From Marinobacterium sp. (GTDB lineage: Bacteria; Pseudomonadota; Gammaproteobacteria; Pseudomonadales; Balneatricaceae): a DNA stretch of 64,000 nucleotides. Within the stretch, counting starts at the first letter, position 1. Every line of letters begins with the position of its first letter. The notes under the pieces are model-generated. The model was not told the DNA's origin, made no database searches, and saw only the letters and a program-made list of their open reading frames with translations. Positions 5,325 to 57,691 of this stretch are shown here, one piece after another. The position numbers were made by a program, and so were the translations under genes. Location of the stretch: positions 1-64,000 of the forward strand of contig JAUWAC010000002.1 in NCBI GenBank assembly GCA_030602245.1, read 5' to 3'.

Positions 5325-6575
5325 TTAAGCCTGAATCCAGGCCGGTGTCGTGATCCGGGCGGGGGTGCGTTGCATGATGATCTCGCCGTGTCGGACCGAC
5401 AGCAGAACCTCGCCCTGTCTGCGCAGCACGCTGTAGTCATCCGCGCCGTCGAGCAGGATGAAGTTGCCGGGTTTGCCGGTCTCGATGCCGTAGCGGTGCT
5501 GAATGTTCAGCGTGCGCGCGCCGTTGTCGGTGATGAAATCCAGCGCGCTCTCGAAATCCTGATAGCCCATCATCTGGCAGATGTGCAGGCCGAAGTCGAG
5601 GCTGCGCAGCAGTTTGCCGTTGCCGAGCGAATACCAGGGGTCGAAAATCGAGTCTTCGGCAAAGCAGACGTTGATGCCGGCTTCGTTCAGCTCCTTGACC
5701 CGGGTCAGGCCGCGCCGTTTCGGGTATGAATCGAAGCGCCCCTGCAAGTGGATGCTCTCGGTGGGGCAGGAGACGAAGTTGATATCGGCGCGTTTCAGCA
5801 ATCGGAACAGCTTGGAGCAGTAGGCGTTGTCGTAGGAGTGCATCGCCGTGGTGTGGCTGGCGGTGACACGTGAGCCGAGCCCGTTGAACAGTGCCTCGCA
5901 GGCCAGCACTTCAAGGAAGCGAGAGTTGGGATCGTCGATCTCGTCACAGTGCACATCGACCAGCCGGTCATATTTCTGAGCCAGTTCGATCACTTTCTTC
6001 ATCGATGCCTCGCCCAGCTCGCGGGTGTATTCAAAGTGCGGAATGCCGCCGACCACGTCGGCACCGAACGTCAGCGCTTCTTCCATCAGCGCCAGGCCGT
6101 TGGGGTAGGAAAGCAGTCCCTCCTGCGGGAACGCGACTATCTGCAGGTCGATCTTGTCTTTCAGCTCGTCGCGCAGCGCGCACAGGGTTTTCAGGCCGAC
6201 TAGGCTTGGGTCCGAGGTATCCGCGTGGGAGCGAATATGCTGCACGCCGTTCTGAACCAGCAGTTCGATGGTCCGGAGCACACGCTGGCGGATATCGGTC
6301 TCGTTCAGCATCGGTTTGCGCTCGCTCCAGCGCTCAATGCCCTCAAACAGCGTACCGCTCTGGTTCCAGCTCGGCTCACCGGCCGTCAGTGCGGCGTCGA
6401 GGTGGATATGGGGTTCAACAAACGGTGGGCTGAGCAGTTGGCTGTTGGCATCAATCGCGCCTTGCGGGCAGACGACCGGGCCGTCCTGGGCGCTGATCTG
6501 GCTGAACACACCGTCGGTGATCTCCAGAGTGTGAAGCCGGGACTTCTTGCGCAGACGGGCGTTGACGATCTTCAT
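5325..6575 (-). CDS. codA: Cytosine deaminase-like amidohydrolase with altered active site
   Basis: A 416-residue metal-dependent amidohydrolase closely resembling E. coli CodA. The metal and catalytic set is present: His56-x-His58, His209, Glu212, His241 and Asp308, each shifted by five from E. coli 61/63/214/217/246/313. Gln151 and Trp314, which match the base-binding Gln156 and Trp319, are also kept. The loop after the HTTAMHS strand differs: E. coli GHDD is AEDS here, so the equivalent of Asp314 is Ser309 and the residue before the metal Asp is Glu307. Asp314 governs ring recognition in E. coli, so substrate preference may have shifted to a related pyrimidine or triazine. It is followed in the same direction from a PucR regulator and a CodB-like permease. 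Confidence 0.88.
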   Translation of the reverse strand: MKIVNARLRKKSRLHTLEITDGVFSQISAQDGPVVCPQGAIDANSQLLSPPFVEPHIHLDAALTAGEPSWNQSGTLFEGIERWSERKPMLNETDIRQRVLRTIELLVQNGVQHIRSHADTSDPSLVGLKTLCALRDELKDKIDLQIVAFPQEGLLSYPNGLALMEEALTFGADVVGGIPHFEYTRELGEASMKKVIELAQKYDRLVDVHCDEIDDPNSRFLEVLACEALFNGLGSRVTASHTTAMHSYDNAYCSKLFRLLKRADINFVSCPTESIHLQGRFDSYPKRRGLTRVKELNEAGINVCFAEDSIFDPWYSLGNGKLLRSLDFGLHICQMMGYQDFESALDFITDNGARTLNIQHRYGIETGKPGNFILLDGADDYSVLRRQGEVLLSVRHGEIIMQRTPARITTPAWIQA

Positions 6576-6586
6576 GGGAACCTCTT

Positions 6587-7837
6587 TCAGTGATCGGCCG
6601 GCGGGAGCTGGCTATCGATATTGTGGTGCTGAAACAGTATCTGCTCGATCAGCAGGGCGTTTTGCAGATTGAGCCGAACAAAGGCATCGGTGAGGCGGTG
6701 GCCGATCAGCTGCTCGATTCGTTTCAGACGGTGTCTCAGGGTGTTGCGGTGGATGCCCAGTGCGTCGGCCGCCTGCTGCTGGTTGCCGAACAGGTTGAGG
6801 TACTGGGTCAGGGTGGCCTTGAGCAGCAACGACGGGTCGTCGCGGGCAAAGCACAGCGCGCCGAGCTGCTGCTGACAGAACTGCGCCAGCAGATTGCGCT
6901 GCGGGATTGCGGCAAACAGCCGTGCGATACCGAGCTGGTCATAAAAGAACAGCCGCTGGCCGCCGTGCTGAGCAGCAAACTGCACCGCCTGACGGGATTG
7001 TTCGACGGCGGTGGAAAGCTGGCTCAGGCCCGGTTGCAGATCGCTGACGCCGGCATGGAGTCGGCCCTCCGGCAGGTGGTTCTGCAGCTGCTCCAGCGCG
7101 GCGTTCAGTTCCTCCGACAGGTCGCTGGCATTGTTGCTGTCCGAGGGCCAGATGGCGATCAGGTCCCGCTCCAGCACCAGCACCGGCCAGTCGATACCGC
7201 GTCGCTTGAGCAGTTCGCCGAGTTGCTGCTCCAGTGCATTACGCTGATGCAGCAGCTGCCAGTGCTGATCTCGATCCTCGCTGAGCAGGCGCTGGTGGAA
7301 ATCGGGCAGCCGTACGGAGACCACGGCATAGGGGCGATTGTCATTCAGCCCCAGCTCGGCGGCGCGCAGGTGGATCAGCTCCGGTGCATCGGCGAAACCG
7401 TTGATCAGTCGGGTCAGGAACAGCCGGATCGACTGGCCGATCAGGTTGTCTTGCACGATCGCGTTGCTGATGACCTCGGTGACCAGCACCATCTTCAGCG
7501 AGTAGGGTTGCTCCAGAATCGGGAAATTCAGCGTGTTGGCAAGCTCCAGCACCCGTGGCGGTATTGCGCGGATGAATTCCGCGCCGGTCAGGATCACCAG
7601 TCCTGCCACCTGATGCGCCACGGCCTCGCGTATCAGCTGCATCAGGTTGGTTTCGCTGCGGCGCTGATTGATGCCGGTGATGAAGACGAGCTCGCCGCCG
7701 CGCACCCAGGGGGCGATGGTGTCGTTTTCGGCGACATAGGGCCAGCGCACCGGACGGTTGCCGCCCTGCAGCCCGGCCCGGAAGCGGATCGCTTCCAGAC
7801 CGGGCAGGCGCGGGATATCGGCGCAGGTGATTGCCAT
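6587..7837 (-). CDS. PucR/CdaR-family transcriptional regulator
   Basis: A 416-residue regulator. Residues 1-130 are the purine-catabolism-type PucR N-terminal domain (IPRLPGLEAI, GGELVFITG, AGLVILTG). The middle is a GGDEF-like CdaR region. The C-terminal 60 residues carry the PucR HTH, with NQQQAADALGIHRNTLRHRLKRIEQLIG. PucR-type proteins respond to nitrogen compounds such as purines or allantoin. It lies 1 nt after the permease stop and 11 nt before the deaminase start, so all three are one transcript and it is the obvious local regulator. Confidence 0.9.
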   Translation of the reverse strand: MAITCADIPRLPGLEAIRFRAGLQGGNRPVRWPYVAENDTIAPWVRGGELVFITGINQRRSETNLMQLIREAVAHQVAGLVILTGAEFIRAIPPRVLELANTLNFPILEQPYSLKMVLVTEVISNAIVQDNLIGQSIRLFLTRLINGFADAPELIHLRAAELGLNDNRPYAVVSVRLPDFHQRLLSEDRDQHWQLLHQRNALEQQLGELLKRRGIDWPVLVLERDLIAIWPSDSNNASDLSEELNAALEQLQNHLPEGRLHAGVSDLQPGLSQLSTAVEQSRQAVQFAAQHGGQRLFFYDQLGIARLFAAIPQRNLLAQFCQQQLGALCFARDDPSLLLKATLTQYLNLFGNQQQAADALGIHRNTLRHRLKRIEQLIGHRLTDAFVRLNLQNALLIEQILFQHHNIDSQLPPADH

Positions 7838-7838
7838 A

Positions 7839-9095
7839 TCAGCCTTCAGCCGGGTCCAGCGCGGCGTTGGCCAGCGGCATTTTAACCAGCACGCTGTAGG
7901 CGATGACCGCCACGACCACGCCGACCAGCGGCGGCAGTACCGGTGAAAAGTAAGCCGCCGCAGAGCCCAGCGCGTAGGCGGACAGCCCGGTCCAGTTGAA
8001 GGCGGGCAGCTCGCTGTCGGCCAGTGCCGGATACTGGCCTTTGTGGTTGACCCAGAAGTCGGCCATGATCACGCCGCCGATCGGCGGGATAAAGGTACCG
8101 AGCAGGACAAGGAACGGGATCAGCATGTTGTACATGCCGCCGACTGCCAGCACGGTACCGATCGCGGCACCGCCGACGGTCACCAGGCGGCGCTTGTCGG
8201 TGCGCAGCAGGTTGCAGCCGGCGACGGCGAAGTTGTAGATCGTGTTGTCCTGCGTGGTCCAGATGTTGAGGAACAGCATCAGCACGGCGAGGACGACGAA
8301 GCCCTGTGCCAGCATCACGTCGACAATATCCGCCTGCTGATAGATCAGCGCGCCGAGTGCACCGGTCAGGACCATCAGACCGTTACCGACGAAGAACGCC
8401 GCCAGCGTTGCGAGTACGGCAATGCGGGGCGTCCGTGCGAAACGACTCCAGTTGGTGGCCTGGGTGCCGCCGCTGATAAAGGTGCCGATGACGACGGTAA
8501 TCGCGGCGGCGAAGCTCATACTCTCGGACGGTGTGGTGTCGACCAGTCCGGCAACACCGCCCACGTCAATCATGCCGGTGTAGAGGCTGACCAGGATGAA
8601 CAGCATCATGGCCGGCACCGCAACACGCGACAGCCAGTCCAGCCCGCGATAGCCGATCATGGCGGTGACGCAGAATGCGAAGCCGAACAGAATCATCAGC
8701 GGAATTTCCAGCGACTCCGGCAGGCCGGTGGTTTTCACCAGTACGATGGCGATGGTCGCGGTGCCCCAGGCGTACCAGCCGATCTGGGTAAAACCGAGCA
8801 CGAAATCCGACAGCTTACTGCCGATCTCGCCGAAACAGAAACGGCCCATCAGCACCGAATTCAGCCCGCTTTTGCAGGCGATACAGGCCAGCGCGGCCGC
8901 GTAGGCGCCCAGCAGCAGGTTACCGAACAGAATCACCAGCATCAGCTCTCCAAACGAGAACGCGTTGCCGAGCGAACCGCCGGCCCACATGGTGGCGGTA
9001 AAGAAGGTAAAACCGAGCAGTACAACCGATGTGGAGAGCAGCCCCCGGCGATCGCTTTTGGGCACTTCGCTCAATGGGTAATCCGAGTTTTCCAT
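7839..9095 (-). CDS. codB: NCS1-family cytosine permease (CodB-like)
   Basis: A 418-residue polytopic membrane protein with about 12 hydrophobic segments and NCS1 hallmarks: FTFFTATMWAGGSLGNAF in helix 1, RFCFGEIGSKLSD, the helix 6 stretch ISGGTQATNWSRFAR, and IWTTQDNTIYNFAVAG. Length and residues match CodB, a proton- or sodium-coupled cytosine importer. First gene of the codB-pucR-codA transcript. Real substrate may match the altered deaminase rather than cytosine. Confidence 0.9.
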   Translation of the reverse strand: MENSDYPLSEVPKSDRRGLLSTSVVLLGFTFFTATMWAGGSLGNAFSFGELMLVILFGNLLLGAYAAALACIACKSGLNSVLMGRFCFGEIGSKLSDFVLGFTQIGWYAWGTATIAIVLVKTTGLPESLEIPLMILFGFAFCVTAMIGYRGLDWLSRVAVPAMMLFILVSLYTGMIDVGGVAGLVDTTPSESMSFAAAITVVIGTFISGGTQATNWSRFARTPRIAVLATLAAFFVGNGLMVLTGALGALIYQQADIVDVMLAQGFVVLAVLMLFLNIWTTQDNTIYNFAVAGCNLLRTDKRRLVTVGGAAIGTVLAVGGMYNMLIPFLVLLGTFIPPIGGVIMADFWVNHKGQYPALADSELPAFNWTGLSAYALGSAAAYFSPVLPPLVGVVVAVIAYSVLVKMPLANAALDPAEG

Positions 9096-47485: not shown

Positions 47486-50400
47486 ATGAGTGCAACCCAA
47501 CGTATCTACAAGGTCCGGCGCCGCTACAACAAGTGGGTAGCGAACCAGACGCTGGAAGACTATGCCCTGCGATTTACCGCGCGGCAGGGGCGTCGGATGA
47601 GCATCGAGCGTGTTGCCATGACGGCGCTCGGCGCCACCGCATTTCTGGCGCTGGAGGGCATCGCCGCCGCCGTAACGCTGACCTACGGTTTTACCAATAC
47701 GCTGGTGGCGATGCTGGTGGTGTGTGCGCTGTTCTTCATTACCGGGGTGCCGATTACCTATCACGCGGCGCGTAACGGGCTGGATATCGATCTGCTGACG
47801 CGTGGCGCCGGGTTTGGTTATCTCGGCTCGACAATTACGTCGCTGATCTATGCCAGTTTCACCTTCATTTTCTTCGCCATCGAGGCGGCGATTCTGGCCG
47901 CGGCGCTGAAAGCGCTGTTCGGCTTGCCGATGCCGATCGGTTATCTGGTCAGCGCGATGGCGGTGATTCCGGTGGTCACGCACGGCATCACGGCGATCAG
48001 CCGCTTTCAGGTCGGCACGCAGCCGCTGTGGCTGATTCTGCAGGTCAGTGCGCTGGGGCTGGTGATCCTGCACGAATCGGAACGGTATCAGGGCTGGACG
48101 GCGTTCGTGCCGCGCGGTCTAGAGAATGGCGGCGAGTTCAATCTGATGCTGTTCGGTGCTGCCGCGTCGGTCTTTTTCGCGATGGTGGCGCAGATCGGTG
48201 AGCAGGTGGACTACCTGCGCTTCATGCCGGAAAAGACCCGGGCCAACGCCGGGCGCTGGTGGTTCTGGATGCTGTTCTCCGGCCCCGGCTGGGTATTGAT
48301 CGGGCTGATCAAGATGTTGCTGGGCTCGTTTCTGGCCTACCTGATGTTCTCCGAGAGCGCGTCCTTCGTCACCGCGACCGATCCGACGCTGATGTATCAG
48401 CGCGTGTTCAATTATCTGACTCAGTCGGAGGGCGCGGCGCTGCTGCTGGCCGGCGTCATGGTGATCATCTCGCAGATGAAGATCAATCTGACCAACGCTT
48501 ACGCCGGTTCCATCGCCTGGTCCAACTTTTTTTCGCGCCTGACCCACAACCATCCCGGGCGCGTCGTCTGGCTGGTGTTCAACGTGACCATCGCGCTGAT
48601 CCTGATGGAGCTGGGCATCTATCAGGCACTGGAGGCGATCCTCGGTGTGTTTGCGATCGTCGCGGTGAGCTGGCTCGGCTCCCTGTCGGCGGATCTGATG
48701 ATCAACAAGCCGCTGGGCCTGAGCCCGAAGACGGTCGAGTTCAAACGCTCGCATCTCTATGACGTCAACCCGGTCGGCGTGGGTGCCATGGCGACGGCGG
48801 TGCTGGTCGGGCTGCTGGCCTATCTGGGGCTGTTTGGCGAGGTGGCGCGTACGCTGAGCCATTTCATCAGTCTGGCGGTCTGTTTTGTCATGGTGCCGCT
48901 GCTGGCGTGGGCCACCGGCGGGCGCTACTACCTCGCGCGTGAAGGCGACGATGTTGTCGCCTCGCATACCTGCGGGATCTGCGAAAACCGCTTTGAGCAG
49001 GAGGACATGAGTTACTGTCCGGCCTATCAGTTGCCGATCTGTTCATTGTGCTGCTCGCTCGATTCGCGCTGTCTCGACAGCTGCAAGCCGCAGGCGCGCT
49101 TCTCGCGGCAGCTGCTGGATTTTCTGAAGCTGTTTCTGCCGCAGCGCTGGATCCGTCGGGTCGACTCCCGGTTGGGCCGTTTCGTCGGCCTGCTGATGCT
49201 GATTACGCTGTTGCTGGCGGGGTTGCTGGCGGTGGTCTACCGGCAGATGGACCCGGCCACACCAGAGATGGCGCGGCTGCTGGCGCAGACCCTGTGGACG
49301 CTGTTCTTCGTGCTGTTGATCGTGGCCGGAGTGGTCGCCTGGCTGTTCCTGCTGGCGCACGAGAGCCGGGTCGTGGCGCAGCAGGAGTCCAACCGGCAGA
49401 CCCTGAAGCTGCTGCAGGAGATCGATGCGCACGAAGAGACCGACCGCGAGTTGCAGCGGGCCAAGGAGCTGGCCGAGCGTGCCAGCGATGCCAAGAGCCG
49501 GTACATGTCCGGAATCAGCCATGAGCTGCGCACGCCGCTGCAGTCGATCATCGGCTACGCGCAACTGATACAGGGCCGGGCGGCGCTGGAACGGGCCGAC
49601 AGCGAGGGACTGAAAATCATTCTGCGCAGCGGCCAGTATCTGGCCGACCTGATCGAAGGGCTGCTCGACATCTCGCGCATCGAAGCCGGCCGGCTGGAAC
49701 TCTGTCGCGCACCGGTGGCGCTGCCGGAACTGATTGCCCAGCTCGAGCAGATGTTCGGCTTTCAGGCGGCGCAGAAGGGCGTGCGTTTTGTCTGCGATAT
49801 TGAAGATCGGCTGCCACAGGTGGTGATGAGCGACGAGAAGCGCCTGCGTCAGGTGCTGATCAACCTGCTCTCCAACGCGGTCAAATACACGCAGGAGGGC
49901 GAGGTGCGGTTCCGCATCCGCTACCGCAATCAGGTGGCCGAATTCATCATCGAGGATACCGGTGTCGGTATCGATGCCGCGAGTCTGCAGCGCGTGTTCG
50001 ACCCGTTCGAGCGGGTCCGGACCGCCGCCACCGCCGATCTGCCCGGTAGCGGTCTGGGCCTGACCATCGTCAAGCTGCTGACTGAAATCATGGGCGGCGA
50101 TCTGCAGGTCGAGAGTACGCCGGGGCAGGGCAGCTGTTTCCGGGTCGCGGTGATGCTGCCCTGGGTGGAAGGGGCACCCAAGGCGGCGCAGACCCAGCGT
50201 CCGGTGGTCGGTTATGCCGGGCCGCGGCGGACGATCTGCGTCGTTGATGACGACCCGGTGCTGCGCGGTCTGCTGTCCGACATGCTGCAGCCGCTGGGGT
50301 TTCGTATCTATGAGGCACCCAATGGCAACGCCTGTCTGGCGCTGGTGACAGAGGTCAGCCCGGATCTGTTTCTGCTCGACATCGCCATGCCCGGCATGGA

Positions 50401-50851
50401 CGGCCTGCAACTGGCCGCGGCGCTGCGTGAACGCGGGCATCGGCAGCCGATTCTGATGCTCTCCGCCGATGTCCAGGAGCAGCGGCGCCAGCCGGCGGGC
50501 AGTGCCGTATATGATGAGTATCTGGTCAAGCCGGTCAGCAACCAGCAGTTACTGGACCGCATCGGCTATCACCTGAAACTGGAATGGACGCGTCGGGCCG
50601 CGGCGCCGCTTGAGCAGGGCGCCGCGCCGGTGGTTGCGGAGCTATCGGCGCGCCTGGAGGTGCCAGACCATCCGCTGGTGCGTGAGCTGCGCGGGTACGC
50701 GGAGATCGGCTATCGGCGTGGTGTACGCGAGGTGCTCGAGCAGTTGCGCCAGAGCGATCTGCTCAGTGCCGAGGTGCTGGCACGCCTGACGCAACTGGCG
50801 GACGGGATGCAGTTCGCGCGTCTGGCTGAATGTCTGGAACAAGCGAAATGA
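47486..50851 (+). CDS. NCS1-transporter/hybrid histidine kinase fusion
   Basis: A 1121-residue membrane sensor. Residues about 35-480 are a complete NCS1 nucleobase-transporter-like domain with about 12 membrane segments (FLALEGIAAAVTLTYGF, ITAISRFQVGTQPLW, INLTNAYAGSIAWSNFF). A Cys-rich stretch follows (Cys496 and Cys499, then Cys pairs to about 530), then two further membrane helices. Next come the HisKA domain (HELRTP, His679), ATPase domain (NLLSNAVKYTQ, DTGVGID, GSGLGLTIVK) and a receiver (VVDDDP, phosphoacceptor Asp965, YLVKPVS), plus an 80-residue helical tail. Couples with the response regulator by an ATGA overlap and precedes urtABCDE. Likely a transporter-type receptor for urea or a nitrogen compound, as CbrA is for another transporter fold. 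Confidence 0.88.
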   Translation: MSATQRIYKVRRRYNKWVANQTLEDYALRFTARQGRRMSIERVAMTALGATAFLALEGIAAAVTLTYGFTNTLVAMLVVCALFFITGVPITYHAARNGLDIDLLTRGAGFGYLGSTITSLIYASFTFIFFAIEAAILAAALKALFGLPMPIGYLVSAMAVIPVVTHGITAISRFQVGTQPLWLILQVSALGLVILHESERYQGWTAFVPRGLENGGEFNLMLFGAAASVFFAMVAQIGEQVDYLRFMPEKTRANAGRWWFWMLFSGPGWVLIGLIKMLLGSFLAYLMFSESASFVTATDPTLMYQRVFNYLTQSEGAALLLAGVMVIISQMKINLTNAYAGSIAWSNFFSRLTHNHPGRVVWLVFNVTIALILMELGIYQALEAILGVFAIVAVSWLGSLSADLMINKPLGLSPKTVEFKRSHLYDVNPVGVGAMATAVLVGLLAYLGLFGEVARTLSHFISLAVCFVMVPLLAWATGGRYYLAREGDDVVASHTCGICENRFEQEDMSYCPAYQLPICSLCCSLDSRCLDSCKPQARFSRQLLDFLKLFLPQRWIRRVDSRLGRFVGLLMLITLLLAGLLAVVYRQMDPATPEMARLLAQTLWTLFFVLLIVAGVVAWLFLLAHESRVVAQQESNRQTLKLLQEIDAHEETDRELQRAKELAERASDAKSRYMSGISHELRTPLQSIIGYAQLIQGRAALERADSEGLKIILRSGQYLADLIEGLLDISRIEAGRLELCRAPVALPELIAQLEQMFGFQAAQKGVRFVCDIEDRLPQVVMSDEKRLRQVLINLLSNAVKYTQEGEVRFRIRYRNQVAEFIIEDTGVGIDAASLQRVFDPFERVRTAATADLPGSGLGLTIVKLLTEIMGGDLQVESTPGQGSCFRVAVMLPWVEGAPKAAQTQRPVVGYAGPRRTICVVDDDPVLRGLLSDMLQPLGFRIYEAPNGNACLALVTEVSPDLFLLDIAMPGMDGLQLAAALRERGHRQPILMLSADVQEQRRQPAGSAVYDEYLVKPVSNQQLLDRIGYHLKLEWTRRAAAPLEQGAAPVVAELSARLEVPDHPLVRELRGYAEIGYRRGVREVLEQLRQSDLLSAEVLARLTQLADGMQFARLAECLEQAK

Positions 50852-51759
50852 GCGAGAACGGAACACGGCAGGATCTGGTGCTGGTGGTGGACGATTCACC
50901 GGACGCACTGAGCCTGATCAACGATACCCTCGAGGGGGCCGGGCTGGATGTGCTGGTGGCGCTGGAGGGGCGTCAGGCACTAAGCATCGCCCGGCGCATG
51001 CGTCCGGATATTATCCTGCTCGATGCGATGATGCCGCATATGAACGGCTTCGACACCTGCAAGGCGCTGAAACAGGATCCGGATCTGTGTGCGATTCCGG
51101 TCATCTTCATGACCGGCCTGACCGAAACCGAGGATGTCGTGCGCGGACTCGAAGCCGGCGGCGTCGACTACCTGACCAAACCGATTACTCCGGCGGAGCT
51201 GCTGGCGCGCATGCGGGTGCATCTGAGCAACGCGCGTATGACCCAGAATGCCTATTCGGCGCTCGATACAACCGGTCAGCATCTGGTGACGGTTAACGCG
51301 CAGGGGCGCATGGGCTGGGCCACGCCGCAGGCCCATGCACTGCTGGCGCGGGCCGACGTGGATGAGCAGCGCGTGCGGGAGCGGCTCGAGCCACAGCTGG
51401 CGCAGTGGCTGCAGCATGAGCCGGCACCGAACGACCGTCTGTCACTGCGTGATCTGCCGCAACCGCTGGCGGTACGCCTGATCGGGCGGCAGGAAAACGG
51501 CGACTATCTGCTCAAGCTGCTGGATGAACAGGAGGGCAGCGGTGCCTCGCTGCTGCAGTCGCGCCTTGGTCTGACGCCGCGGGCTGCGGAGGTGCTGTAC
51601 TGGATCGCCAACGGCAAGACCAACAAAGAGATCGGTGAAATCCTCGGCATGAGCCCGCGCACCGTCAACAAACATCTGGAACTGATCTACCCCGACCTCG
51701 GCGTGGAAAACCGTACCGCTGCAGCCGGGGTGGCGCTGCGGATTCTGGTGCAGGAGTAG
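50848..51759 (+). CDS. LuxR-type response regulator partnering the hybrid kinase
   Basis: A 303-residue regulator. The receiver (1-125) has acidic pair Asp15/Asp16, phosphoacceptor Asp59 (IILLDAMMP) and the Lys in YLTKPI. A linker of about 110 residues follows, then a LuxR/NarL HTH (LTPRAAEVLYWIANGKTNKEIGEILGMS, PRTVNKHLELIY). The ATG overlaps the kinase stop as ATGA. Expected to bind upstream of urtA. Confidence 0.92.
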   Translation: MSENGTRQDLVLVVDDSPDALSLINDTLEGAGLDVLVALEGRQALSIARRMRPDIILLDAMMPHMNGFDTCKALKQDPDLCAIPVIFMTGLTETEDVVRGLEAGGVDYLTKPITPAELLARMRVHLSNARMTQNAYSALDTTGQHLVTVNAQGRMGWATPQAHALLARADVDEQRVRERLEPQLAQWLQHEPAPNDRLSLRDLPQPLAVRLIGRQENGDYLLKLLDEQEGSGASLLQSRLGLTPRAAEVLYWIANGKTNKEIGEILGMSPRTVNKHLELIYPDLGVENRTAAAGVALRILVQE

Positions 51760-51900: not shown

Positions 51901-51920
51901 ACTACGTCAAATGACGTAGT
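51901..51920. promoter_or_regulatory. Perfect palindrome upstream of urtA, probable regulator site
   Basis: ACTACGTCA (51901-51909) and TGACGTAGT (51912-51920) are exact inverted arms separated by AA. The site lies 95 nt before the urtA ATG. A TGCGTCAT copy resembling one arm follows 6 nt later. The dyad size fits a LuxR-type dimer such as the adjacent response regulator. A weak -10 (AATAAT, about 51963) lies 40 nt downstream, which would suit an activator. Confidence 0.65.
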
Positions 51921-52014: not shown

Positions 52015-53313
52015 ATGAAGATCAAATCACTGGCTGCGAGTGTTGCACTGACCGTCGGCGCTACCGGCTTCTCCATGGCGGCATGGGCCGAAGACCCGAT
52101 CAAGGTCGGTATTCTGCACTCGCTGTCCGGCACCATGGCGATCAGCGAATCCACTCTGAAAGACACCATGCTGATGCTGATCGAAGAGCAGAACGCAAAG
52201 GGCGGTCTGCTCGGTCGTGAGCTGGAGCCGGTGGTGGTCGACCCGGCATCCAACTGGCCGCTGTTCGCCGAGAAGGCGCGTGAGCTGCTGGCCAAGGAGA
52301 AGGTCGACGTCATCTTCGGTAACTGGACCTCCGTATCGCGCAAGTCGGTACTGCCGGTGGTCGAGGAACTCAACGGCCTGCTGTTCTACCCGGTTCAGTA
52401 CGAGGGTGAGGAATCCTCGGAAAACGTGTTCTACACCGGTGCCGCGCCGAACCAGCAGGCGATTCCGGCAGTGGACTACCTGATGAACGAGATTGGGGTC
52501 GAGCGCTGGGTTCTGGCCGGTACCGACTATGTCTACCCGCGTACCACCAACAAGATTCTGGAAACCTACCTGAAGGATCACGGTGTCGCTGCAGAAGACA
52601 TCATGATCAACTATACGCCGTTCGGTCACTCCAACTGGCAGTCGATCGTGTCTGACATCAAGGCGTTCGGCAGCCAGGGCAAGAAGACCGCCGTGGTCTC
52701 CACCATCAACGGTGATGCCAACGTACCGTTCTACCGCGAACTGGGTAACCAGGGCATCGCCGCATCCGACATCCCGGTGGTCGCGTTCTCTGTCGGTGAG
52801 CAGGAGCTGTCCGGTATCGATACCGCGCCGCTGGTTGGCCATCTGGCGGCCTGGAACTACTTCATGAGTGTCGATGCGGACGCCAACTACGACTTCATCG
52901 ACAAGTGGGTCGCCTATAAAGGTGATGAAAACGCGGTCACCAACGATCCGATGGAAGCGCACTACATCGGCTTCAACATGTGGCTGGAGGCGGTCAAGAA
53001 AGCCGGTACCACGGATGTGGACGCGGTCAAGGATGCGATCATCGGTGTTGCCGTCCCCAACCTGACCGGTGGTTACGCGACCATGATGCCGAACCACCAC
53101 ATCACCAAACCGGTACTGATCGGCGAGATTCAGGATAACGGTCAGTTCTCAGTGGTCTGGGAAACGCCGTCCACCGTGGCCGGCGATGCCTGGTCCGACT
53201 TCCTGCCGGGTTCGCGTGATCTGATCAGCGACTGGCGCAAACCGCTGTCCTGCGGCAACTACAACGTCGTCGAGAAGAGCTGCGGCGGCGCCGAGAAAGT
53301 CGCTTCCAACTAA
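52015..53313 (+). CDS. urtA: Urea ABC transporter substrate-binding protein
   Basis: A 432-residue binding protein with a signal peptide ending in SMAAWAED. The mature part has UrtA features: IKVGILHSLSGTMAISE, VFGNWTSVSRKSVLPVVEELNGLLFYPVQYEGEE in the sequence context of urea-binding proteins, and GTDYVYPRTTNKI. AAGGGGG precedes the ATG at 52015; a longer frame to 51895 runs through the regulator palindrome and is rejected. First gene of urtABCDE. Confidence 0.95.
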   Translation: MKIKSLAASVALTVGATGFSMAAWAEDPIKVGILHSLSGTMAISESTLKDTMLMLIEEQNAKGGLLGRELEPVVVDPASNWPLFAEKARELLAKEKVDVIFGNWTSVSRKSVLPVVEELNGLLFYPVQYEGEESSENVFYTGAAPNQQAIPAVDYLMNEIGVERWVLAGTDYVYPRTTNKILETYLKDHGVAAEDIMINYTPFGHSNWQSIVSDIKAFGSQGKKTAVVSTINGDANVPFYRELGNQGIAASDIPVVAFSVGEQELSGIDTAPLVGHLAAWNYFMSVDADANYDFIDKWVAYKGDENAVTNDPMEAHYIGFNMWLEAVKKAGTTDVDAVKDAIIGVAVPNLTGGYATMMPNHHITKPVLIGEIQDNGQFSVVWETPSTVAGDAWSDFLPGSRDLISDWRKPLSCGNYNVVEKSCGGAEKVASN

Positions 53314-53415: not shown

Positions 53416-55020
53416 ATGAGCATCCCCCGATCGCTCAGCCAGCTTCTGATCGTCTGTCTGCTGTCGCTGCTTGCCCTGGCACCTGCCCGGGCGGACGATG
53501 CCCAGGCACAGGCGCTGCTCGAGCAGCTGGCCGACGCCCCCTACGCGCAGAAAGGTCGCATCATCGGCGAAATTGCCGGCAGCGGCGATGAACGTGCCCG
53601 GCAGTGGCTGGAAGCCTTTGCCAACGGCAAACTGGCCCGGGTCGAGGCATCCGGTCAGTTCGTCATCGTGCTGGAAAACCGCGGTCGCAACTGGACCGTG
53701 GCCGATGCCCTCAGTGGCGAGACGATCGGCGAAATTTCGCGGCGTGATCTGGACAGCCTGCGCATCAACAATGCGCTGCGTGGCGAACTGGACGGCATCC
53801 TGTCGGTGATCGATCTGACGGTGGCTGATGTCGGCAAGCGGCTGGCGGCGGCGCGCGATCTGCGCGGCGGCGTCGATGCCGGCTCCTTCGAGCGCATCGG
53901 TACGCTGCTGAGTGCGGAGGAGAACCCCGATGTCCGCGCCGCCCTTGAAGAGGCGCTGGCGATCTACCGGGTGGAGGCGCTGGGCGATATCGCGGCCGTG
54001 GCCGTACTGGCCGGCAGTCTCAATACGGCCGCGCGGGCGGCGCTGACCGGTGCGGCGCGCAGCGACAACGCGCAGCTGGCCGCGGCGGCCAACCGTGCGC
54101 TGGAGTCGATCGATCAGAAACTGAAACTGAACAACGCCGCCAAGACGCTCTACTTCGGCATCTCGCTCGGCTCGGTGCTGGTGCTGGCCGCGATCGGACT
54201 GGCGATCACGTTTGGCGTCATGGGGGTCATCAACATGGCGCACGGCGAGCTGATCATGCTCGGGGCCTACACCACCTGGGGCATGCAGCAGTTGCTGCCG
54301 GGACAGCCGGGGCTGGCGCTGGTGCTGTCGATTCCGGCCGGCTTCATGGTCGCGGCGCTGGCCGGTATCGCCATCGAACGTACGGTGATTCAGCACCTCA
54401 AGGGGCGTCCGCTGGAGACGCTGTTGGCCACGTTCGGCATCAGCCTGATTCTGCAGCAGCTGGTGCGCACGGTGATTTCGCCGCTGAACCGCAGCGTGGT
54501 GACGCCGGAGTGGATGAGTGGCTCGATCATGATCAACGAAGCGCTGAGCCTGACCCTGAACCGCCTCTACATCATCGGCTTTGCGCTGGTGGTGTTTGCC
54601 GGGCTGATGCTGATCATGCGCAAAACCCGCCTCGGTCTCGAGGTGCGGGCCGTCACCCAGAACCGCGCCATGGCCCGCTCGATGGGCATCAAGGCGACCC
54701 GTGTCGACATCCTGACCTTCGCACTGGGCTCCGGGGTTGCGGGGCTGGCCGGGGTCGCGCTGTCTCAGATCACTAACGTGGGGCCGAACCTGGGCCAGAA
54801 CTACATCATCGACTCGTTCATGGTCGTGGTGTTCGGCGGCGTCGGCAATCTCTGGGGGACACTGGTCGCCGGTTTGTCGCTGGGCACCATCAACCAGCTG
54901 CTCGAACCCTGGGCCGGTGCCGTCCTGGCCAAGATTCTGGTGCTGGTCTTCATTATCCTGTTCATTCAGAAACGCCCGCGCGGACTCTTCCCGCAGAAGG
55001 GCCGTGCGGCGGAGGGTTGA
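53416..55020 (+). CDS. urtB: Urea ABC transporter permease UrtB
   Basis: A 534-residue protein. A signal peptide (1-29) and a soluble N-terminal region of about 200 residues rich in Ala and Arg precede the permease domain. The permease begins near residue 245 with LYFGISLGSVLVLAAIGLAITFGVMGVINMAHGELIMLGAY and includes EVRAVTQNRAMARSMGIK. The long N-terminal region is normal for UrtB in proteobacteria. Confidence 0.94.
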   Translation: MSIPRSLSQLLIVCLLSLLALAPARADDAQAQALLEQLADAPYAQKGRIIGEIAGSGDERARQWLEAFANGKLARVEASGQFVIVLENRGRNWTVADALSGETIGEISRRDLDSLRINNALRGELDGILSVIDLTVADVGKRLAAARDLRGGVDAGSFERIGTLLSAEENPDVRAALEEALAIYRVEALGDIAAVAVLAGSLNTAARAALTGAARSDNAQLAAAANRALESIDQKLKLNNAAKTLYFGISLGSVLVLAAIGLAITFGVMGVINMAHGELIMLGAYTTWGMQQLLPGQPGLALVLSIPAGFMVAALAGIAIERTVIQHLKGRPLETLLATFGISLILQQLVRTVISPLNRSVVTPEWMSGSIMINEALSLTLNRLYIIGFALVVFAGLMLIMRKTRLGLEVRAVTQNRAMARSMGIKATRVDILTFALGSGVAGLAGVALSQITNVGPNLGQNYIIDSFMVVVFGGVGNLWGTLVAGLSLGTINQLLEPWAGAVLAKILVLVFIILFIQKRPRGLFPQKGRAAEG

Positions 55021-55023
55021 TCC

Positions 55024-56172
55024 ATGACTGACTCCCTGAACCCTGCACAGTCGTGGCTGGTGCGCCCGTTTGCCGAGCGCTCGACGCAGGTTTTCCTCGC
55101 CGTGCTGGCCACGGCGGTGGCACTGGTCACCGTTCTCAATCTGGCGCTGCCGGCGGACAGCGCGCTGCATGTCAGCACCTACACCGTCACCCTGATGGGC
55201 AAGTATCTCTGCTACGCACTGCTGGCGGTTGCCGTGGATCTGGTCTGGGGCTACCTCGGGATTCTCAGCCTCGGTCATGGTGCGTTCTTTGCGCTGGGTG
55301 GCTACGCGATGGGCATGTATCTGATGCGTCAGATCGGCGATCGCGGCGTCTACGGTAACCCGGAGCTGCCGGATTTCATGGTGTTCCTGAATTGGCAGGA
55401 GTTGCCCTGGTACTGGTACGGCTTCGACATGGCCTGGTTTGCGTTTCTGATGGTGCTGCTGGCACCGGGCCTGCTCGCGTTCGTGTTCGGTTATCTGGCG
55501 TTCCGTTCCCGTGTCACCGGCGTGTACCTGTCGATCATCACGCAGGCGCTGACCTTCGCGCTGATGCTGGCGTTTTTCCGCAACGAGATGGGATTCGGCG
55601 GCAACAACGGCCTGACCGACTTCATGGATATACTCGGTTTTGATCTGCGCACCGACGGCGCTCGACTGGGGCTGTTCATCGCTTCCGGCGTGGCGCTGGC
55701 GATCGGCTATATCATCTGTCGCGCCATTGTTGCGTCCAAGCTCGGCCGGGTCAGCATCGCCTGCCGCGATGCCGAGGCGCGGACCCGGTTTCTGGGCTAT
55801 CGGGTGGAGCGGGTGCAGCTGTTCGTATTCGTCGTCTCGGCGATGCTGGCCGGGGTCGCCGGGGCGCTGTACGTGCCCCAGGTCGGCATCATCAACCCGA
55901 GCGAGTTCTCGCCGCTGTTCTCGATCGAGGTGGTGGTCTGGGTCGCGCTGGGTGGGCGGGCCACGCTGTACGGCGCCGTGATCGGTGCGCTGATCGTCAA
56001 CTACGCGAAAACCGTGTTCACCGGCGTCATGCCCGATGCCTGGCTGTTTGCACTCGGCGCGTTGTTCGTGCTGGTGACGGTGTTTCTGCCCAAGGGCATT
56101 GCCGGCCTTCTGGCCGGGTGGGGGACACGTAAACGCACTGAGGACACGCCTGCAGAGGAGGCCACCGCATGA
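55024..56172 (+). CDS. urtC: Urea ABC transporter permease UrtC
   Basis: A 382-residue permease of the LivM type (LVWGYLGILSLGHGAFFALGGYAMGMYLM, RDAEARTRFLGYRVERVQLFVFVVSAMLAG). 3 nt after urtB. Overlaps urtD by an ATGA. Confidence 0.94.
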   Translation: MTDSLNPAQSWLVRPFAERSTQVFLAVLATAVALVTVLNLALPADSALHVSTYTVTLMGKYLCYALLAVAVDLVWGYLGILSLGHGAFFALGGYAMGMYLMRQIGDRGVYGNPELPDFMVFLNWQELPWYWYGFDMAWFAFLMVLLAPGLLAFVFGYLAFRSRVTGVYLSIITQALTFALMLAFFRNEMGFGGNNGLTDFMDILGFDLRTDGARLGLFIASGVALAIGYIICRAIVASKLGRVSIACRDAEARTRFLGYRVERVQLFVFVVSAMLAGVAGALYVPQVGIINPSEFSPLFSIEVVVWVALGGRATLYGAVIGALIVNYAKTVFTGVMPDAWLFALGALFVLVTVFLPKGIAGLLAGWGTRKRTEDTPAEEATA

Positions 56173-56993
56173 GCCTGATGACGGAACTGACCCGTCGCGA
56201 TCGGGTGTTCGATTTTCTGGCACCGTCCGCATCGCCCGTGGATGTGCGTCACGGCCCGATCCTCTACCTTGAGGATGTCACCGTCAGCTTCGATGGCTTC
56301 AAGGCGATCAACAATCTGAACCTGACCATCGACGACGGCGAGCTGCGCTGCATCATCGGTCCTAACGGGGCCGGCAAGACCACGATGATGGATATCATCA
56401 CCGGCAAGACCCGCCCCGATACCGGCTCGGTCTGGTTCGGCAGCCGGCATAACCTGCTGACGATGCACGAGCCGGAGATCGCCAGCCTGGGCATCGGGCG
56501 CAAGTTCCAGAAGCCGACCGTGTTCGAGGCCCTGACCGTGTTTGAAAATCTCGAGCTGGCGATGGCGGCCGACAAGCGTATCCTGCCGACGCTGACGGCG
56601 CGCCTCAGCGGCGAGCATAACGACCGGATCGACGAGGTACTGGCGATCATCGGTCTGGGGGATCTGCGCAGCCGCGTTGCCGGCATTCTCTCGCACGGTC
56701 AGAAACAGTGGCTCGAGATCGGCATGTTGCTGATGCAGAAGCCGCGTCTGCTGCTGGTCGACGAGCCGGTGGCGGGCATGACCGAGCAGGAGATGGAGCG
56801 CACCGCCGAGTTGCTGACCGGGCTGGCGGGCCAGCAGTCGGTGGTCGTGGTCGAGCACGATATGGGCTTTGTCCGCTCCATCGCCCGCAAGGTCACGGTG
56901 CTGCATCAGGGCAGCGTACTGGCAGAGGGCAGTATGGATCAGGTGTCGGCCGATCCGGAGGTGATCAAGGTTTATCTGGGGGAAGACGCCTGA
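56169..56993 (+). CDS. urtD: Urea ABC transporter ATPase UrtD
   Basis: A 274-residue ATPase: Walker A GPNGAGKT, IGRKFQKPTVFEALTVFEN (UrtD style), signature LSHGQKQWLEIG, Walker B LLLVDEPVAGM. The signature LSHGQKQ replaces the usual LSGGQ, as is normal for UrtD. The start overlaps urtC. Confidence 0.94.
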   Translation: MSLMTELTRRDRVFDFLAPSASPVDVRHGPILYLEDVTVSFDGFKAINNLNLTIDDGELRCIIGPNGAGKTTMMDIITGKTRPDTGSVWFGSRHNLLTMHEPEIASLGIGRKFQKPTVFEALTVFENLELAMAADKRILPTLTARLSGEHNDRIDEVLAIIGLGDLRSRVAGILSHGQKQWLEIGMLLMQKPRLLLVDEPVAGMTEQEMERTAELLTGLAGQQSVVVVEHDMGFVRSIARKVTVLHQGSVLAEGSMDQVSADPEVIKVYLGEDA

Positions 56994-57691
56994 TGCTGAA
57001 CATCGAACAACTCAACCAGTACTACGGCGAAAGCCACACCCTGTGGGACCTGAATCTGCAGGTGCCGCAGGGGGAGTGTCTCTGTGTCATGGGGCGTAAC
57101 GGCGTCGGTAAGACCACGCTGATGAAGTGCATCATGGGCGAGGAGGCGGTCCACAGTGGCTCGATCACGCTGGATGGCGACGTGGAGCTGACCCGTCGCA
57201 GCATCGAGGAGCGTGCCCGGCTCGGAATCGGCTACGTGCCGCAGGGGCGGCAGATCTTCCCGATGCTGACGGTGGAGGAGAATCTGCGTACCGGGCTGGC
57301 GGTGCGCCAGGATGGGCTGAAAACCATTCCGGAACGGATCTACGAGCTGTTTCCGGTGCTCAGGGAGATGAAAAACCGCCGCGGCGGCGACCTCTCCGGC
57401 GGTCAGCAACAGCAGCTGGCGATCGGTCGCGCGCTGGTGATCGAGCCGCGCCTGCTGATCCTCGATGAACCGGGCGAAGGGATTCAGCCCAATATCGTGA
57501 GCCAGATCGGCGAGGTGATCCGCCGCCTGATGGCGGAGGATGGCCTGACCGTCATTCTGGTCGAGCAGAAGCTGCCGTTCGCGCGCAAATATGCCGACCG
57601 TTTCGCGATTCTGGATCGTGGACGGATCATGGCAGCGGATCGGATGGCGCAGTTGAGCGACGCGCTGATCCGGCAGTATCTGGCCGTGTGA
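56993..57691 (+). CDS. urtE: Urea ABC transporter ATPase UrtE
   Basis: A 232-residue ATPase: LNQYYGESHTLWDLNLQVPQGE, Walker A GRNGVGKT, GYVPQGRQIFPMLTVEENL, signature LSGGQQQ, Walker B LLILDEPGEGIQPN. The ATG at 56993 overlaps the urtD stop by one base. Last gene of the urea operon; no urease or urea amidolyase genes are in the window. Confidence 0.94.
   Translation: MLNIEQLNQYYGESHTLWDLNLQVPQGECLCVMGRNGVGKTTLMKCIMGEEAVHSGSITLDGDVELTRRSIEERARLGIGYVPQGRQIFPMLTVEENLRTGLAVRQDGLKTIPERIYELFPVLREMKNRRGGDLSGGQQQQLAIGRALVIEPRLLILDEPGEGIQPNIVSQIGEVIRRLMAEDGLTVILVEQKLPFARKYADRFAILDRGRIMAADRMAQLSDALIRQYLAV

Follow-up and report, generated by a model that had tools for sequence, protein, structure and literature searches.

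A hybrid histidine kinase with an NCS1-like transporter fold is associated with urea and amide uptake genes and a shared palindrome

Main finding and proposed mechanism

We analyzed a 64,000-nucleotide stretch of Marinobacterium sp. DNA (contig JAUWAC010000002.1, positions 1–64,000; hereafter the window) and focused on the gene at 47486–50851. Its product joins a transporter-shaped membrane domain to a signaling kinase, which confirms an observation made in an initial annotation of the sequence. We propose, with a probability of roughly 0.72, that this protein is an NCS1-type sensor of urea or amides that acts via a LuxR-type regulator on the urea transporter genes urtABCDE. Relatives of the kinase in many bacteria adjoin urea or amide uptake genes, among which a palindrome is often shared, so the NCS1-kinase protein is probably a sensor that turns on the uptake of such small nitrogen compounds. 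The fold, the conserved fusion, the gene partners, and the association with the palindrome were computed. The palindrome and its association with the kinase and urtA are new here; the family itself is already partly studied, since one member, AmsS/StkS of Acinetobacter, has been the subject of two papers (PMC10112286; PMC9146086).

In the proposed mechanism, a ligand, either urea or a small amide, would dock at the membrane in the NCS1-type domain, whose shape change would be relayed to the HisKA domain by way of a Cys-rich segment and the last two helices. The phosphate would then be passed on to the LuxR-type regulator, whose gene overlaps that of the kinase, and the active regulator would bind the palindrome TACGTCAnnTGACGTA and switch on urtABCDE. 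From the results below, we infer what the ligand is, which way the regulation runs, how phosphate is relayed, that the regulator binds the palindrome, and whether the domain itself also transports.

Domain layout and NCS1-like fold of the kinase

The kinase gene and the parts of its product are as follows:

47486–50851, + strand: hybrid histidine kinase with an N-terminal NCS1-type transporter fold, 1121 aa
47555–48922, + strand: NCS1-like domain, residues ~24–479 (hhalign; the VIA alignment to CodB covers model residues 24–479)
48971–49087, + strand: Cys-rich segment with eight Cys, residues 496–534, predicted to resemble a zinc ribbon by appearance only
49169–49378, + strand: two further predicted membrane helices, residues ~562–631, leading into the kinase
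49490–49690, + strand: HisKA, residues 669–735, phospho-acceptor His 679 (Pfam)
49832–50152, + strand: HATPase_c, residues 783–889 (Pfam)
50234–50563, + strand: receiver domain of the hybrid kinase (Response_reg, residues 917–1026; Pfam)

The HisKA, HATPase_c, and Response_reg matches each exceeded the Pfam cut-off, in agreement with the order of domains read in the initial annotation. Their catalytic motifs are whole (SHELRTPL at 678, containing His 679; N and G boxes at 793, 824, and 854; receiver motif LLDIAMPG at 963), such that the protein has the full composition of a hybrid histidine kinase. The Cys-rich segment, which looks like a zinc ribbon by appearance only, and the two helices bridge the transporter and kinase parts and were not described in that annotation.

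The same annotation had read the first 480 residues as a full NCS1 transporter. The Pfam profile for this family, PF02133, did not match the window N-terminus up to an E value of 10, nor did it match three other fusion copies that were scanned, and the PF02133 matches collected in relatives contain no fusion copy. No transporter family for the first 500 residues was among the 25 of 148 NCBIfam families listed, Pfam gave no PF00474 (SSS) match in the window kinase, and no relevant Protein Data Bank chain was recovered with a sequence profile built from the fusion domain. We therefore call the domain NCS1-like rather than file it under PF02133. Profile-profile and structural comparisons supplied what the domain search did not. 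An alignment of 20 homologous N-termini matched 15 PF02133-positive proteins in hhalign over the whole transmembrane core (Prob 98.6, E 8.7e-16, 401 columns). An origin from the SSS (SLC5) family was rejected, as the comparison with ten SSS proteins gave Prob 5. An AlphaFold2 model of residues 1–655 (pLDDT 76, pTM 0.77) had CodB or Mhp1 as all five of its best Foldseek matches. Structure alignment with VIA gave Z 33.6 for CodB (root-mean-square deviation 3.4, 396 aligned) and Z 30.1 for Mhp1 (4.0, 430 aligned), compared to Z 24.9 for the best non-NCS1 family. The profile comparison and the predicted structure thus agree that an NCS1-like fold is complete in the first ~480 residues.

Mhp1 and CodB share this fold with the window protein but have no kinase, are only 16–17% identical to the sensor in the structure alignments, and differ at substrate-site residues. 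Mapped through the alignments, W117, Q121, and S312 of Mhp1 correspond to F129, E133, and K332 of the window sensor. We take W117 and Q121 to be substrate-site residues and S312 to be the Na2-site serine of Mhp1; on this assumption, the three changes would fit a small ligand and an absence of sodium coupling. These positions bear on whether the NCS1 part might additionally work as an importer, which would make the protein a true transceptor. Sodium coupling is unlikely with Lys in place of S312, though the stand-alone relatives described below share this Lys; the sensors also carry E57 where five Acinetobacter-type stand-alone copies have Phe, and an ATP-binding cassette (ABC) importer is already encoded next door. 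The completeness of the fold and the existence of close stand-alone copies, presumably transporters, nevertheless speak for transport, as does the analogy with CbrA, a transporter-kinase protein proposed as a transceptor in the portion available of PMC13022988. We regard an importing sensor as possible but doubtful.

Regulator, urt genes, and recurring gene partners

The genes that follow the kinase are:

50830–51759 (alternative start 50848), + strand: LuxR-type response regulator
52015–53313, + strand: urtA, urea ABC transporter substrate-binding protein (start shifted from 51895)
53416–55020, + strand: urtB permease
55024–56172, + strand: urtC permease
56169–56993, + strand: urtD ATPase
56993–57691, + strand: urtE ATPase (start inferred; in the open reading frame starting at 56708, the residues before 97 are outside the model match)

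The regulator gene overlaps the kinase gene by 22 bp (start 50830) or 4 bp, ATGA (start 50848); a 4-bp overlap is likewise reported for amsSR in the part of PMC10112286 at hand. The products of urtABCDE scored 564, 418, 446, 391, and 331 bits against TIGR03407–03411, each above the cut-off, although TIGR03407 also passes for an amide-type relative (locus L057). For urtA, ATG 52015, behind a likely ribosome-binding site, is a better start than the GTG 51895 of the original list of open reading frames. The gene order first noted, with the kinase overlapping its regulator and preceding urtABCDE, is therefore borne out.

The fusion is not a chance joining, as full-length copies recur at 50–91% identity over the first 655 residues. 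It was matched in 40 of 96 relatives, with some of these matches being to stand-alone proteins only, and in 122 of the 390 genomes of the order, 115 of them strongly. The seven genomes with weak matches (G078, G097, G201, G223, G253, G260, and G359) were counted as kinase-negative. In G078, only a kinase fragment (residues 614–653) was matched, at positions 1044843–1044962 of contig C10, as if the gene had been lost. G253 was considered as carrying a distant AmsS and rejected, its match falling in an unrelated efflux-pump-like reading frame.

For the gene neighborhoods, at least 595 stretches matched the search pattern and at least 565 were confirmed; we used the best 80 loci, and this set consequently leans to close relatives. 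They derive from alpha-, beta- (two loci), and gammaproteobacteria. The regulator is present in 74 loci, and the remaining six end within 2.2 kb. A UrtA-type gene lies in the fetched flank of 64 loci, of the amide type in 57 and of the window's type in seven. In each of the 57 amide-type loci, the UrtA-type gene and the kinase gene are divergently oriented, and a gene like FmdA is present in 51 of them (the query being formamidase FmdA by NF045496, 769 bits). Among the 16 loci lacking a UrtA-type gene, nine end early on at least one side and seven do not.

In a quick tree of the loci (SH-aLRT support only, arbitrary root; L067, L079, and L111 left out), the window belongs to a 17-row group with an SH-aLRT of 99. 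This group includes every one of the seven rows with window-type UrtA, two with urease alpha, eight with no partner in view, and none of the amide type; a urea-type partner reappears elsewhere in the tree (L105 and L221). The window's kinase type (kinase domain at least 63% identical) was found in 44 genomes, excluding split or partial matches in G116, G299, G374, and G410. Kinase and urtA share a contig in 33 of them, within 25 kb in 32. Across the order, a UrtA-type gene occurs in 113 of the 115 kinase-positive genomes, compared to 100 of the 275 others. The conservation of the fusion with urtA, proposed as a check in the initial annotation, is seen in these 32 genomes, and a UrtA-type partner is seen in the 64 loci. 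The fusion is a large family whose recurring partners are urea genes (UrtABCDE, urease) or amide genes (Urt-like ABC transporter, formamidase).

Published work touches on both types of cluster, as far as the accessible parts of these papers go. In Ectopseudomonas, genes for a hybrid kinase and a LuxR-family regulator have been noted with a urtABCDE operon (PMC13296017). A second urt-like cluster of Bradyrhizobium has been argued to carry amides rather than urea (PMC3098086), and much the same argument has been made for a Pseudomonas veronii cluster (PMC13209695). Full-length copies also occur on Klebsiella plasmids, at 48.6–48.8% identity among the matches listed. In the conjugative IncF plasmid pA1705-qnrS of Klebsiella pneumoniae (MG764551.1; locus L196), the kinase and regulator are divergent from urtABCDE-type genes and amiF, and a variant of the palindrome lies between the kinase/regulator pair and the urtABCDE-type genes. 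A preprint on Klebsiella CG307 names a plasmid or accessory transporter UTS, which may or may not equal this cluster; its main text, insofar as it was accessible, contains neither "two-component" nor "histidine kinase" (PMC13060141).

A palindrome associated with the kinase and the urtA promoter

The palindrome TACGTCAnnTGACGTA has one exact match in the window, with 0.00 expected, and no second window site with at most one mismatch:

51903–51918, no strand assigned: palindrome TACGTCAAATGACGTA, candidate target of the response regulator, with the urtA ATG 96 bp downstream

We scanned 44 non-redundant stretches out of 60 intergenic ones for dyads, with ten single-base shuffles as a control. 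The dyad CGTCA-2-TGACG occurred in 14 of the 44 and ATACG-8-CGTAT in 13, versus at most 2 in the shuffles for palindromic dyads with equally long arms; their joint consensus is ATACGTCAnnTGACGTAT. In five loci with urtA ~5–10 kb from the kinase start (L033, L035, L037, L040, and L042), the best site precedes urtA and not the kinase, with one mismatch in L040. Two loci, L047 and L105, have nothing above 10 or 11 of 14 positions.

Across the 390 genomes, there were 49 exact sites in 47 genomes, and a reversed control pattern was found in 6. Exact sites were present in 41 of 115 kinase-positive genomes compared to 6 of the 275 others (Fisher p = 1.2e-18, a value that is too small because the genomes are related). 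Of the 49, 22 lie 157–321 bp upstream of a UrtA match, all in kinase-positive genomes, and 10 lie less than 250 bp upstream of a kinase match; for UrtA positions, only the better places were listed. Among the 22 window-type genomes without an exact site, 10 have a match of 12 or 13 of 14 positions before urtA, whereas 18 kinase-negative genomes had no near match there (best 9 of 14). Within the 100 UrtA-positive, kinase-negative genomes, the exact site occurs only in G075, G144, and G255; in G075 and G255 it is on a different contig from the UrtA gene. No exact palindrome was seen at urtA in kinase-less genomes, the site in G144 not being placeable relative to UrtA.

Separation of the fusion from urt genes, which had been named at the outset as part of a result that would speak against the idea, does occur: 12 window-type genomes lack urtA within 25 kb of the kinase. 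Yet five of these keep the exact palindrome at urtA, with the kinase 200 kb away (G303) or on another contig (G038, G246, G322, and G416), and in this respect the unlinked genomes partly reinforce the proposal. The others are weaker in this respect. Sites matching 13 of 14 positions are found at urtA in G406 and G332 (both counted in the 22 above), no site is found at urtA in G369, G207, and G145, and G102 and G357 have no UrtA-type gene. In all, the palindrome is associated with kinase presence and with the urtA promoter. In L049, L054, L056, and L059, an exact palindrome is located 7–8 kb from the kinase, past the ABC genes (at positions 2705, 2006, 2498, and 2271, respectively), in addition to a near match at the kinase; these putative distant sites may mark a second regulated promoter.

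Several results weigh against a sensor dedicated to urea or amide uptake. Seven loci have ~10 kb on both sides of the kinase and no UrtA-type gene, although one of them (L046) has UrtC, UrtD, and UrtE, and two kinase-positive genomes also lack a UrtA-type gene. The remaining 17 of the 49 exact sites are close upstream of neither urtA nor the kinase; kinase-positive genomes account for 10 of these and six kinase-negative genomes for 7. Of the 22 window-type genomes without an exact site, 12 have no match of at least 12 of 14 positions in the stretch read; four of these, members of one genus, have a 12-of-14 site near the kinase instead. Neither urease alpha nor FmdA was found in the window assembly, which does contain urea carboxylase. 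This assembly (G000) measures 2.39 Mb at 91% estimated completeness, compared to 3.5–5.6 Mb for seven genomes of the same genus, and several genes may simply be missing from it. In addition, amsSR shows induction by carbonyl cyanide m-chlorophenyl hydrazone (CCCP) and broad metabolic effects, according to the accessible part of PMC10112286.

That 74 of the 115 kinase-positive genomes lack the exact palindrome, and that 100 UrtA-positive genomes manage without the kinase, likewise count against the proposed role and would be expected if the kinase merely hitch-hiked beside urt genes and the palindrome belonged to an unrelated regulator. We consider this very improbable: the site tracks the presence of the kinase, stands at urtA in five genomes where the kinase is unlinked, and has variants between the kinase and transporter genes in distant relatives and in the Klebsiella plasmid copy.

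AmsS/StkS, stand-alone relatives, and the likely ligand

The kinase studied in Acinetobacter baumannii belongs to the fusion family, given that the published amsSR primers fit locus L212 (0, 0, 0, 2, and 2 mismatches) and would yield products of 3978 bp (stated as 3979) and 4934 bp (stated as 4945). AmsS/AmsR, which is the same system as StkS/StkR, has the NCS1-like domain, the hybrid kinase, and the overlapping LuxR-type regulator gene that define the family. In the first 545 residues, the L212 and window kinases share 49% identity. A variant palindrome is again present, located between the kinase and its divergent neighbor; unlike in the window, this neighbor is a stand-alone NCS1-like copy of 548 aa and not urtABCDE. 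The studies describe 14 transmembrane helices, with neither NCS1 nor urea in what we could consult of PMC10112286 and PMC9146086; the word urea is absent from both main texts and the word NCS1 from that of PMC10112286. The initial annotation had held that an NCS1-kinase fusion in front of a urea importer was, to its knowledge, functionally undescribed. The fusion is instead a large family with a member already studied; neither paper names urea. In a profile search of family f36, 26 of 149 genomes matched.

Stand-alone copies in four genomes of the same genus as L212 point to urea. In L218 (7122–14312) and L219 (7655–15104), the stand-alone NCS1-like gene, whose product is 40% identical to the window sensor domain, adjoins genes for urea carboxylase (TIGR02712, 1864 and 1854 bits) and allophanate hydrolase (TIGR02713, 809 and 728 bits), all above cut-off. 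The copies in L270 and L271 are beside the same two genes, as judged by similarity. Urease alpha is encoded ~4 kb from the copy in L272 and in L274, the latter from another genus; L275 has none of these three genes, and L273 is only 5 kb long. The stand-alone genes near urea carboxylase are thus candidates for a new branch of urea permeases, as their neighborhoods suggest. Residues E133, Q330, K332, and N334 are common to the sensors and five Acinetobacter-type stand-alone copies, which is what one would expect if both had the same ligand site; in the more distant L194, K332 is replaced by Arg.

Because the partners that recur handle urea, formamide, and short-chain amides, we expect a ligand from this class; for the window, whose assembly has urea carboxylase, urea would be our first guess. 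The initial annotation had suggested urea, allantoin, or a purine as the signal for switching on urea uptake. A urtA-switching sensor with a link to urea remains most likely, and we dropped purines, cytosine, and allantoin because no gene for them was conspicuous among the recurrent neighbor clusters, in which not every neighbor was annotated. The kinase could instead control urea or amide uptake while sensing nitrogen status, internal ammonia, pH, or membrane energy, with the NCS1 fold serving as a scaffold. The changes from W117 to F129 and Q121 to E133, at what are presumably substrate-site residues in Mhp1, would suit such a scaffold. So would the response of amsSR expression to CCCP and the altered internal pH and membrane potential of mutants, described in the available text of PMC10112286. 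We judge this unlikely, as the partners vary between urea and amide genes yet remain concerned with small carboxamides, and the four residues above do not differ between the sensors and the five stand-alone copies, two of which lie beside urea carboxylase.

Taking the sensing of urea or amides as the preferred reading, we lean slightly toward a broader one: a Proteobacteria-wide family of NCS1-type urea/amide receptor kinases that would govern urea and amide uptake via one shared palindrome, and which would have arisen from or alongside an unrecognized branch of NCS1 urea permeases and would include AmsSR/StkSR and the Klebsiella plasmid regulators.

Comparison with known transporter-kinase systems and implications

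The nearest system in design is CrbS/CrbR, and the nearest in descent is AmsSR/StkSR. In the part of PMC5715377 available, CrbS/CrbR also combines a transporter fold fused to a hybrid kinase with a LuxR-family regulator and an imperfect inverted repeat at target promoters; it differs in its SLC5 (SLC5-STAC) fold, its repeat, and its acetate regulon. The histidine-related CbrA is likewise a single chain that combines a transporter with a kinase and is termed a transceptor in the accessible portion of PMC13022988, but it contains SLC5, STAC, and PAS domains and no NCS1 domain. For the window kinase, Pfam reported no STAC domain; no STAC reference was compared. CbrA works with a different type of regulator. 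A sensor kinase of Kuenenia, as far as the text of PMC5764959 was available, likewise unites a nitrogen-related transporter fold with a histidine kinase, the fold being that of an ammonium transporter rather than NCS1. No publication describing this type of NCS1-kinase fusion turned up in a literature coverage that excluded most subscription journals and did not extend to the letters of the palindrome.

The proposed reading would provide a ligand class and a target for widespread sensor kinases, which the plasmid records listed name only ATP-binding protein, hybrid kinase, or similar, and would extend the small set of transporter-kinase sensors by one built on NCS1. It offers a testable new interpretation of the AmsSR/StkSR signal, a pointer to a possible new branch of urea permeases, and a prediction for the control of urea/formamide clusters on plasmids. 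A cluster of this type in urinary Klebsiella is discussed in the available part of PMC13060141.

Other NCS1-like and transporter-kinase genes

There is another group of stand-alone NCS1-like proteins (L141–L144 and L146–L149; regions L197–L200). In L197–L200, it is encoded beside genes that resemble, by eye, hydantoinase A/B or 5-oxoprolinase subunits; PF02133 gave no match or one under the cut-off in the four scanned members. The window itself encodes an NCS1 transporter matched by PF02133 (E 6e-30) within 5325–9095, together with a PucR-like regulator and an amidohydrolase-like gene, both assigned by eye. Weak SSS-family matches occur in reading frames of 981 and 1342 aa in two genomes of this genus (G000, contig C10, 13911–14186; G004, contig C2, 213660–214883), which are possibly CbrA-type transporter-kinase fusions.

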